From Pelosinus fermentans DSM 17108 (lineage in GTDB: Bacteria > Bacillota > Negativicutes > DSM-13327): DNA of 64,000 nucleotides. Shown here in pieces: positions 15,837 to 19,004 of the stretch; the stretch's first letter is position 1, and every line of letters begins with the position of its first letter. A program made the position numbers and the translations under genes. The notes under the pieces were generated by a model that was not told the DNA's origin, ran no database searches, and worked only from the letters and a program-made list of their open reading frames with translations. The DNA lies in the NCBI RefSeq assembly GCF_000271485.2, contig NZ_AKVN02000001.1:4117501-4181500 (forward strand). The letters are read 5' to 3'.

Positions 15837-16491
15837 AATTAAAATAATTTTTGATAGGTTTCCAGTCTGGGTTGCCTGCATCCATTTTGTCATGTACTGT
15901 CGTGCGGGAAGCACGTTCAATAATAAATTCCCTAATATATGTATCTTCATCAATATTCTCAATATCTTTAATCAGACGACCTTCATCTTGGATGTTGAAG
16001 GCAATCAGCGTATAATATTTACCGCCTGACAATTCTCTAATGAGTATACCCATACCTACAGGGGACTCCCCTTCTTGGAAGTTTCGGCTTATTGAACTGT
16101 GAGTTGCAAAGAAATTCGCTTTTGGTGCTTTTGTTAAAGCATATACTTCGGGGAAGTATAATTTAAACTCTTTTATTGTAATTGGCATATCTGGGGTAAA
16201 CCGCTGGGCTGCCACTACTGCATCAGGCTTATTATTTGCATACATGACTTCCATCTGTACGCCTATTCCATGGCGACTAAAGGAATAACGATACGATGCA
16301 GCTTTTGCTTTTTTATAACCTTTCGCTTCCCAATCGGCTCTTGTCCACAACTGATTGTCAGAATCAATCACCAAGCGATAGTCTCCATATTGTTGCTGAA
16401 TCGACTCCCTGTTGTCATCCAAGCTAGCAAAGGCTACACTAGAAAGCATCAACAACATTGAAAAAACTAACATTACTATGATTTTTCTCAT
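15835..16491 (-). CDS. Secreted protein of unknown function
   Basis: I do not recognise this gene. The 218-residue product starts with a clear signal peptide (MRKIIVMLVFSMLLMLSSVAFA, cut probably after residue 22) followed by a soluble domain rich in aromatic and charged residues with no TM. There is one short basic motif, KGYKKAKAASYRYS, but no enzyme signature visible to me. AAGGGG precedes ATG. The stop falls inside the bidirectional terminator. Position next to two cell-wall genes might suggest an envelope role, but this is only context. Confidence 0.75.
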   Translation of the reverse strand: MRKIIVMLVFSMLLMLSSVAFASLDDNRESIQQQYGDYRLVIDSDNQLWTRADWEAKGYKKAKAASYRYSFSRHGIGVQMEVMYANNKPDAVVAAQRFTPDMPITIKEFKLYFPEVYALTKAPKANFFATHSSISRNFQEGESPVGMGILIRELSGGKYYTLIAFNIQDEGRLIKDIENIDEDTYIREFIIERASRTTVHDKMDAGNPDWKPIKNYFN

Positions 16492-16634
16492 AAACTAACC
16501 CCTTCCATTCTTATATCATTACTCTTTATTATTATACCTTACCTGTCATATTTCCTGCTACACAGAAGAAAAACACTCCTGCATCCCATTGTTACCAAAG
16601 ATTAATGAGTTATCACTAATAGGTCAAAAAGAAC

Positions 16635-16662
16635 CGCCTTACTTCATTTTAAAAGTAAGGCG
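16635..16662 (-). terminator. Terminator after the 32-codon membrane ORF
   Basis: CGCCTTACTT (16635-16644) pairs with AAGTAAGGCG (16653-16662). On the minus strand it is followed by GTTCTTTTTG. It lies 30 bases beyond the stop of the small ORF at 16692, which supports that ORF being a transcribed unit. Confidence 0.75.
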
Positions 16663-16691
16663 AATTTTACGAATAAGAGCGAATACTGTCT

Positions 16692-16790
16692 TTAAACGCG
16701 ATCCGAATGAGTTAGCCAATAGATACACAAAGCAGCAGCGACAATGATAATACATCCTACTTCAAGCGCATCAGGCACATCCAGCCACAT
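16692..16790 (-). CDS. Small membrane protein, 32 aa
   Basis: The product begins MWLDVPDALEVGC and continues with one hydrophobic segment (about residues 10-26, rich in Ile, Val, Ala) and ends LTHSDRV. Its ATG has an excellent ribosome site, GGAGGGG, 7 bases upstream, and a terminator follows. No function is recognisable. One-TM peptides of this size are often regulatory or stress proteins, but that is a guess. It is too short for most gene finders. Confidence 0.6.
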   Translation of the reverse strand: MWLDVPDALEVGCIIIVAAALCIYWLTHSDRV

Positions 16791-17045
16791 TATCTCCCCT
16801 CCGTCATTTTGAATACACTTTTTATATACATACTTTATTTATCATTTTTTTATAACATAATTTTCAAATATAAAAGTACCGCCTCACCCAAAAGATAAGA
16901 CGGAGGTTATATAAATTAAAGAGCCACCTTCGTTAAAAAGGCGATTTTTCACCGATCATTATGGAATATAACGAATCGGTACAAAATCAATCCTCCTGAA
17001 TATATTAGAAGTGTTAACACGGAAAGATTAGGAGGGGAAAAAACC

Positions 17046-17303
17046 ATGAATTGCAATATAGCCCCTAATGGCATTGCATTTGGAATTCCAAATCTTGAGG
17101 AATTAGAAAAAAAGGCTTGTAAAACGATTGAACTTCCTGCATTAGCTACAATTAATGGTAATGCGATTGCATTTTTCACAATGCTCGTGTTAAAAGAAAT
17201 CCTTAAACAACAGTCTGCTAATCCTATCAACAATTTGACTAATATCATTGCACTCTCCAATAGCATCGCTGGTTTAAACAGCAGTATAAAGATCATTCAA
17301 TAG
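17046..17303 (+). CDS. Hypothetical protein, 85 aa
   Basis: I do not recognise this gene. Its strong ribosome site AGGAGGGG before ATG 17046 and a terminator 50 bases after the stop favour a real gene. The product is mildly hydrophobic in its second half (repeated Asn, Ile, Ala), with a Cys at positions 3 and 25 and no TM that I would call. A 115-codon frame overlaps on the other strand but lacks a ribosome site and is rejected. Confidence 0.6.
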   Translation: MNCNIAPNGIAFGIPNLEELEKKACKTIELPALATINGNAIAFFTMLVLKEILKQQSANPINNLTNIIALSNSIAGLNSSIKIIQ

Positions 17304-17350
17304 AAAAGCAACGCACACGAAAATATTATTACTATCGTATCGCCTCAGAC

Positions 17351-17380
17351 AAACTCCCTCTGCAAAAGGGAGTTTTCCTT
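17351..17380 (+). terminator. Terminator after the 85-aa gene
   Basis: AAACTCCCT (17351-17359) pairs with AGGGAGTTT (17367-17375), followed by TCCTTTT on the plus strand. Confidence 0.8.
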
Positions 17381-17460
17381 TTACCGGAGGACACCCCTAA
17401 ATCTACCAACAGTGATCATGTTGAATGAAGAATAAAAACCGTTGAGATTCTTATCCTCTA

Positions 17461-17489
17461 AAAAACAAAAACGCCCTACAGGACGCTTA
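17461..17489 (-). terminator. Terminator after the start-less ORF
   Basis: On the minus strand GCGTCC-TGTA-GGGCGT (with G-U pairs) is followed by TTTTGTTTTTT. It lies 10 bases past the stop of the ORF at 17497. Confidence 0.65.
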
Positions 17490-17496
17490 GTTTACA

Positions 17497-17691
17497 CTAT
17501 AATTCTGGAAAATCATCAATCTTATCCATATCTTTTAAATGTTGTATTGCTTCAGCTCGTGTTGTTCCAATAATTTTACCTTGCTTTGTTTTTAAATTTA
17601 AGAAAAAGAATCCACTATCAGATACAATAATTGCTGCAGTTTTGTCTCTACTAAACATTGGGGTAGCAAGACCATTACGATCATGACTTAT
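17497..17691 (-). CDS. Hypothetical 64-codon ORF with no canonical start codon
   Basis: This frame reads a plausible small protein (contains NGLATPMFSRDKTAAIIVSD, then a hydrophobic FFFLNL patch, ending DKIDDFPEL). A perfect AAGGAGG (17700-17706) lies just upstream, but the in-frame codons after it are ATT, ATC and ATA (17697, 17694, 17691), not ATG, GTG or TTG. The nearest ATG (17684) is in another frame and stops after 28 codons. Spacing favours ATA (8 bases) or ATC (5 bases). Either it starts at a rare codon or its start has been lost by one base change. Coordinates assume ATA. Function unknown. Confidence 0.5.
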   Translation of the reverse strand: MSHDRNGLATPMFSRDKTAAIIVSDSGFFFLNLKTKQGKIIGTTRAEAIQHLKDMDKIDDFPEL

Positions 17692-17883
17692 GATAATTAC
17701 CTCCTTTATAATTTCTGATAATTCGGAATATACCTTCTATATTATTCAATAAAAGATGATAATATCCTTCAATATATATTTTTTTTTACAAATTAGTAAG
17801 TAATTTGTAAAGATACCAAACATTGTGACTGTAGATTTTTATTTTTGCAACTCATCAAAATGAGGCCACTCTGAAAAGGGTAT

Positions 17884-18528
17884 TTAAAACTTAAGTCCTG
17901 CACCAACATAAGCAGCTGATTGGCTGCCTGCCAATTGATAAGCACCAACTTTTCCAATACTGCCAGTGTAACCGATACCCGGCTCTATCTTACCTCTTGT
18001 GAACATGGCACCAACTGTAATTACATTATGGCGAGTTAGATCAATTGTAGGAATCTCAGCTTCAATTGTTATTGTGCTGGTTTGTTTTAAATCGATCATA
18101 TTCTTTTCGAATACAAACTTTTCCTCTTCCGTTTTATCAAACTTGCCTACTCTGCCATTTACCATATAAATAAAACTTTGTTTACCAAGATCAAATTTAC
18201 CATCTAATTTTACAGGAGTTGCACCAGGTGTCTCTTTATCAACCGGCATTACTAATACTTCCTTCACTTCTCCCGGTAAATAAACGGTTTCTCCTGGAAT
18301 ATACTGAAACTTCGTATCTGTAATCGTTTTAATCGTTTCCTTAATGATCGGAGGCTTATTTTTTTCTACTGCCAATGCTTGTCTATCACCTTCTCCCAAG
18401 ACATACCCTAACGTTAATCCTGCAGCACTGCCAGTGACCAACGAAATAACGGCAACAATTATGAGCATCTTAAGGTTATATTTACCTTCATCAAGGTTAG
18501 AATTTTCTAATTTTTCTTCTTCGTTCAT
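17884..18528 (-). CDS. Single-pass membrane protein of unknown function, 214 aa
   Basis: I do not recognise this gene. A charged N-terminus (about 18 residues) precedes one TM segment (about residues 20-46, with GxxxG-like small residues). An extended hydrophilic region with PGETVYLPGEV follows, and then a C-terminal part rich in Gly and alternating hydrophobics that ends in Phe (YVGAGLKF). The alternating pattern with a terminal Phe recalls a beta-strand segment, but it is too short for a barrel by itself. GGGAGGGG precedes ATG. Confidence 0.7.
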   Translation of the reverse strand: MNEEEKLENSNLDEGKYNLKMLIIVAVISLVTGSAAGLTLGYVLGEGDRQALAVEKNKPPIIKETIKTITDTKFQYIPGETVYLPGEVKEVLVMPVDKETPGATPVKLDGKFDLGKQSFIYMVNGRVGKFDKTEEEKFVFEKNMIDLKQTSTITIEAEIPTIDLTRHNVITVGAMFTRGKIEPGIGYTGSIGKVGAYQLAGSQSAAYVGAGLKF

Positions 18529-18785
18529 TCTATACCCCTCCCAGCTACTGAGACCAAATTCCCTTACCTTATTATATGATCGTTATCAGCTTTAGCTACT
18601 CTAGGGATAAAGCATATCTGCCAACGTTTCCCTGAAATGGGGGTTGCACATCATCATCTAAAAAAATCGATTCGGCTTTTTTACATAATAACAGTACCAA
18701 TCTTTTTTTAGCATACATACACTATAATATGGAGTCTACGTAATTTGCACTTCATCAGTATTTCACCTCGAAGGGAGGCGATTGT

Positions 18786-18929
18786 ATGATTATTGACTTC
18801 GACGAACGAAAATTTAGAAATGAAATTAAAAGTATCGCTAAAAAGTATGGAGCAAAGTCTAGCGATGCTGAAATGGTAGCAACGATGGCTTTGTCAATTG
18901 TAATGAAATCAAGCAAACCTGTGAAATAA
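18786..18929 (+). CDS. Hypothetical small protein, 47 aa
   Basis: The product starts MIIDFDERKFRNEIKSIAKK and continues as a charged, probably helical peptide ending in VMKSSKPVK. GGGAGG is 7 bases before the ATG and an intrinsic terminator follows 11 bases after the stop, so this is very likely an expressed gene. No function is recognised; no TM and no cysteines. It is transcribed divergently from the membrane protein at 17884. Confidence 0.65.
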   Translation: MIIDFDERKFRNEIKSIAKKYGAKSSDAEMVATMALSIVMKSSKPVK

Positions 18930-18940
18930 TACGGTTGTTT

Positions 18941-18974
18941 CAGCGAGCAGAATATTTTTGCTTGCTGTTTTTTT
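18941..18974 (+). terminator. Terminator after the 47-aa gene
   Basis: CAGCGAGC (18941-18948) pairs with GCTTGCTG (18960-18967) with one wobble, followed by seven T. Confidence 0.85.
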
Positions 18975-19004
18975 ATATATTAAAGTCTTACCTTCCTTTA
19001 ATGC

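Follow-up and report, generated by a model that had tools for sequence, protein, structure and literature searches.

The locus described here raises the question of how, and from which codon, an apparent gene is translated when a strong Shine–Dalgarno (SD) sequence is followed by none of the canonical start codons ATG, GTG, and TTG. It lies on the minus strand of the window, that is, the whole 64,000-nucleotide stretch of Pelosinus fermentans DSM 17108 DNA that was analysed, and direct reading confirmed the arrangement given in a preliminary description: the ribosome site AAGGAGG (17700–17706; pairing with the anti-SD tail computed at −12.4 kcal/mol), the dinucleotide TA, the codons ATT (17697–17695), ATC (17694–17692), and ATA (17691–17689), and a coding-like frame closing at TAG (17499–17497). 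The frame opens at 17736 just past a stop and holds no ATG, GTG, or TTG ahead of ATA, in agreement with the earlier statement that no canonical start precedes it in frame. An in-frame ATG that the description had missed (17658–17656) leaves 53 codons. The terminator, of the intrinsic type, was also present, with a stem at 17488–17469 followed by TTGTTTTTT; its hairpin has a computed energy of −10.9 kcal/mol (z, −1.96), equalled by 10 of 200 shuffled sequences, and a like hairpin folds behind another copy of the gene (L005, group A below). Our answer, to which we assign a probability of about 0.83, is that a genuine gene occupies the locus, equipped with a promoter-like block and a terminator of its own, and that translation would begin at AUA (17691–17689), giving a coding sequence of 64 codons plus TAG (17497–17691) for which relatives, dN/dS ratios, and a predicted fold speak.

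When 60 genomes, among them the own one, were searched in translation, nine gave matches, and 12 copies were recognized in eight Pelosinus genomes. They fall into three sequence groups: A (L001, which is the window copy, L003, L004, L005, and L009), B (L002, L006, L011, L012, and L013), and C (L007 and L008). L009, the sole copy of genome G002, breaks off at the end of its contig, short of the start, and was excluded, so that the counts below refer to the 11 copies in which the start region is intact, from seven of the eight genomes; L023–L029 and L045–L048 repeat the same copies and were counted once, and eight further Pelosinus loci, seemingly from the same species as the examined genomes, were kept out. 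The own genome contains one A copy and one B copy together with two ATG-started members of the family, L052 and L076. The layout of SD sequence, near-cognate codons, and open frame is common to all 11 copies, hence to all three groups and seven genomes. When the ORF lists around one copy of each group (L079, L077, and L078 for A, B, and C, respectively) were compared by eye, the neighbouring genes differed, and no operon partner was seen around any of the three. The convergent neighbour in the window (17046–17303, plus strand) encodes a protein of 85 residues and is followed by a terminator-like hairpin; this protein has no Pfam match above the cut-off and no PHROG or NCBIfam match, and an 81-residue relative of it adjoins the L079 copy.

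Among the three near-cognate codons, only ATA is found in all 11 copies, where it always closes the SD spacer. The preliminary description had allowed a rare start, correctly spaced, at either ATA or ATC; this proposal is supported, and of the two codons the relatives favour ATA. It is unlikely that the start is instead ATC or ATT, with ATA an internal isoleucine codon. Such a start would be in keeping with the natural occurrence of AUU starts, as in Escherichia coli infC and, reportedly, to judge from the title of a paper, in pcnB; moreover, ATC is kept in two of the four A copies and all five B copies, with the SD sequence in reach by our scoring. Nevertheless, the ATC position reads GTC in L003 and L005, GTA in L007, and GTG in L008, and the ATT position varies between ATT and GTT, the latter being found in group B and L008. 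The spacing points the same way: in 20 of the 24 ORFs of at least 150 codons in the window with a GGAGG in reach, which served as the reference, 7–10 nt separate GGAGG from the start; in the window copy ATA lies at 8 nt, whereas ATC and ATT lie at 5 and 2 nt, distances seen in one and none of the 24, respectively. The duplex energies of the SD sequence before ATA range from −8.6 to −14.1 kcal/mol across all 11 copies. Counted from ATA, the protein of group B is one residue and that of group C five residues shorter than that of group A, so that ATA tracks the ribosome site and not the protein alignment. A canonical start at the ribosome site is absent from ten of the copies; the exception is L008, in which GTG directly precedes ATA (SD, −11.5 kcal/mol). 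The codon-invariance of ATA, taken alone, is a weak argument for ATA as the start, because invariance of this kind is not rare in the alignment (8 of the 25 amino-acid-invariant degenerate columns keep a single codon, and at 21 of 59 third positions the copies all agree).

About 50–80 nt ahead of ATA sits a block, AGGATA..TTTTATTGAATAA, that contains a candidate promoter, GAAGGATATTATCATCTTTTATTGAAT (17744–17770, minus strand), recognized by pattern match and composed of an AGGA-type −35 and a GAAT-type −10 element, which we take to fit the sigma-H consensus. The strict sigma-H-like pattern occurs in four of four A copies, both C copies, none of the five B copies, and 11 of the 38 loci of the wider family described below; all five B copies have GGAT in place of GAAT. 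A slightly stricter pattern, ending in GAAT, matched four times across the two strands of the entire window, the present site included. The own genome encodes the corresponding sigma factor (sigH; TIGR02859, 375.9 bits against a cut-off of 294.8), and a sigma-H-like promoter would account for the conserved upstream block. A similar promoter-like block (AGGAATT..CGAA) is seen in the wider members L030, L031, L036, L050, and L076, and hence the sigma-H regulon may extend to further members of the family. No leader structure over the start beyond that of shuffled sequences was found in three copies (z, +1.04, +0.39, and +1.61), and Rfam gave no match up to an E-value of 1 in window positions 16000–19000.

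The promoter-like block also bears on a start further upstream, at TTG in TTATTGAAT or at ATG or GTG in group C, which would extend the protein at its N-terminus and which we consider highly unlikely. In L003, L004, L007, and L008, the frame does run open from upstream canonical codons to the gene: all four have a TTG 19–20 codons ahead of ATA with a weak SD sequence (−4.5 to −5.6 kcal/mol), and L004, L007, and L008 have additional in-frame TTG, ATG, or GTG codons upstream (SD, −0.9 to −3.5 kcal/mol). The other seven copies (L001, L005, and the whole of group B), however, have no upstream in-frame ATG, GTG, or TTG, and the SD sequence of ATA is strong in every copy; furthermore, the TTG is probably not transcribed, because it lies within the presumed GAAT-type −10 element. 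In group B, the stretch from the in-frame stop to the body of the gene consists of AGG GAG AGG GTT ATC ATA and nothing else, and the first in-frame canonical codon after ATA comes 53 codons on in three copies; in the remaining two it lies 47 and 10 codons on. As for translational coupling through an ATAA overlap, in which ATA would share bases with an out-of-frame TAA, inspection by eye found no upstream ORF that is conserved and would start within the presumed transcript. A start at the downstream ATG (17658–17656), yielding a shorter protein, is scarcely plausible; an ATG exists at this position in the window copy, L003, and L006, but its SD sequence is weak (−2.7, −2.7, and −0.7 kcal/mol, respectively), the position reads ATA in the other 8 of the 11 copies, and it falls within the first strand (residues 10–13) of the predicted fold.

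Computed with the start codon omitted, dN/dS was 0.042–0.136 in group B (ten pairs) and 0.092 in group C (one pair), mixed in group A (0.080, 0.778, 0.255, 0.594, 0.245, and 0.415 for six pairs, the two highest values resting on dS of only 0.05 and 0.08), and 0.227–0.672 between groups. These ratios indicate that the frame is under purifying selection, most clearly in group B. That the locus is a pseudogene, has recently lost its ATG by one base change, or contains a sequencing error is hardly credible: ATA does differ from ATG by a single base, and the two high ratios in group A (0.778 and 0.594, from few changes) would suit such a decay, but 11 copies from seven genomes keep the layout with open frames under the low ratios of groups B and C, the ATA copies form one clade, and seven assemblies would have to share the same error. 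The loss and the error, the former raised in the preliminary description and the latter among its checks, are thus both contradicted.

The wider family was outlined by a search of the class, in which 23 of 380 genomes, the own one included, have members, some in genera other than Pelosinus; in a sample of the phylum, the own genome was the only one of 398 with a member. An orthologue with ATG at the position in question, which the preliminary description proposed to look for, is absent from the close copies but is represented by the distant homologue L010, reading GGGGAGGTTATT ATG GAG at its start. More generally, an ATG or GTG giving 50–72 residues with an SD sequence of −4 kcal/mol or better is present in 37 of the 38 wider loci; this rule leaves starts giving more than 72 residues unscored, and by it L008 is the only ATA copy with a canonical start. 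The single exception among the wider loci, L039, begins with a GTG giving 73 residues and misses the rule because of a C-terminal extension. In a midpoint-rooted tree built from 64 alignment columns, the nine ATA copies included (of 11; L003 and L013 were left out) group as one clade with support of 99/98, beside which the tree program flagged a long branch (S315_L051). As the ATA copies form one clade, a single switch to ATA in a Pelosinus ancestor, kept thereafter through duplication, appears to be the simplest history.

The structure predicted for the window protein consists of four β-strands and one helix (mean pLDDT, 85; residues 1–5 below 50). The protein has no profile match in Pfam, NCBIfam, or PHROG at E-values up to 1, and among 36 family members searched against Pfam the best match (DUF5678; E-value, 0.0024) occurs in three. 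A profile search of the PDB gave as its best match a 13-residue stretch of designed proteins (E-value, 0.0046) and a Foldseek search of the model reached an E-value of 0.14 at best, neither indicating a function; the first Foldseek matches include what we take to be β-propeller-type proteins. We would guess that the 64-residue protein acts in the transition to stationary phase as a small regulator or adaptor.

To judge how unusual the arrangement is, a scan of the 64-kb window for an SD sequence, a near-cognate codon, and at least 50 codons returned 17 hits, several of them from the same place, and among these only the present locus has no canonical codon close behind the SD sequence or upstream in frame. 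The scan of the genome covered 2.34 Mb of the 5.03 Mb (47%, window included) and sought an SD sequence, ATA, ATC, or ATT, and at least 45 codons, again with no canonical codon close behind the SD sequence or upstream in frame. With two of its SD patterns, one of which is that of group B, added after the copies were known, it identified 11 ORFs, namely both ATA copies, infC, a gene that we presume to be HD-GYP-like, and seven others, of which at least three have a canonical codon 2–6 codons further on. At a length of at least 60 codons, the 2.34 Mb contained four, four, and two matches for ATA, ATC, and ATT (the window ORF being counted under both ATA and ATC), against one for AAT, none for TTA, one for ACA, two for CAT, two for TAT, and none for AAC as control codons. 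The signature at this locus exceeds chance. The recovery of infC shows that the scan finds a true case; its ATT stands at the same place behind an SD sequence in all 11 genomes of the class that were compared (L072 and L152–L161), with the frame staying open further upstream in L153 and L158, and the lineage thus uses near-cognate starts. The HD-GYP-like gene (G000:C1:2624951, minus strand; named from a motif) may be a second candidate for a conserved AUU start. It has GGAGG, 8 nt, and ATT in L137–L141, and L142 likewise has ATT there; three codons after ATT, an ATG is replaced by AAG in L141 and by GTC in L142, the TTG after that ATG is kept in all six loci (L137–L142), and other in-frame canonical codons occur upstream in L141 and L142. 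At G000:C1:2659953 (minus strand, in L119), a 121-codon ORF has AAAGGAGG followed by ATC ACG TCT and a canonical codon.

Because conserved AUA starts have been described before, the present gene is a new example of an already known kind, that of conserved AUA or AUU starts, to which infC, reportedly pcnB, and ccpN and cvfC1 of Staphylococcus aureus belong. Among the literature matches listed, we found neither a non-canonical start in Pelosinus nor any mention of the present family. Common gene finders consider only ATG, GTG, and TTG, so that genes started by AUA, a codon that is rare as a natural start, are missed or shortened, and such programs would overlook most group B copies altogether. 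According to a study in S. aureus (PMC13009471), infC, ccpN, and citZ start at AUA and cvfC1 at AUU, all behind extended SD sequences; in poor medium, reporters of ccpN, citZ, and cvfC1 gave about 10% of what AUG gave, in rich medium that of ccpN gave up to 30%, and the ccpN start is reported to be conserved between S. aureus and Bacillus subtilis. The Pelosinus gene likewise has AUA behind a strong SD sequence; the S. aureus cases concern other genes and rest on start-site profiling and on reporters in which AUA lowers expression, whereas the Pelosinus case is built on comparison. With infC, both of E. coli and of the 11 genomes of the class, it shares a near-cognate start behind a strong SD sequence; infC differs in using AUU and, in E. 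coli, in its self-regulation by IF3, as stated in the same source (PMC13009471). The S. aureus cvfC1 product (61 residues) is similarly a small protein with a conserved near-cognate start and a strong SD sequence, but in that account its start is AUU, it is the first gene of an operon, and it possibly contains a zinc finger.

AUA is an unusually weak start signal, yet the copies have retained it in several species and through gene duplications, so that it looks maintained rather than mistaken. In the mechanism that we propose, sigma-H RNA polymerase would make a short-leader transcript at the end of growth or the onset of sporulation, and the strong SD sequence would hold the 30S subunit so that the initiator tRNA could pair with AUA despite the third-position mismatch. 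IF3, which favours strong third-position pairs (PMC10158994), would discriminate against this pairing, and the protein level would thus be low and would depend on IF3 as well as on the state of initiation. A single origin of the AUA codon, from an ancestor in the Pelosinus line that started at AUG or GUG, is probable, as is its retention through the duplications, perhaps because a low or conditional dose was wanted. A tentative and rather doubtful extension is that AUG has been selected against in this sigma-H-controlled family of small proteins, with output tied to IF3 and the initiation state as cells leave growth, and that, together with infC (AUU) and the HD-GYP-like gene (ATT), its members may form in Pelosinus a small set co-regulated by start-codon discrimination. 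A family that seemingly switched once to AUA and retained it when duplicated would offer a natural test of whether selection maintains weak starts, in which its AUG- and GUG-started relatives may serve as controls.
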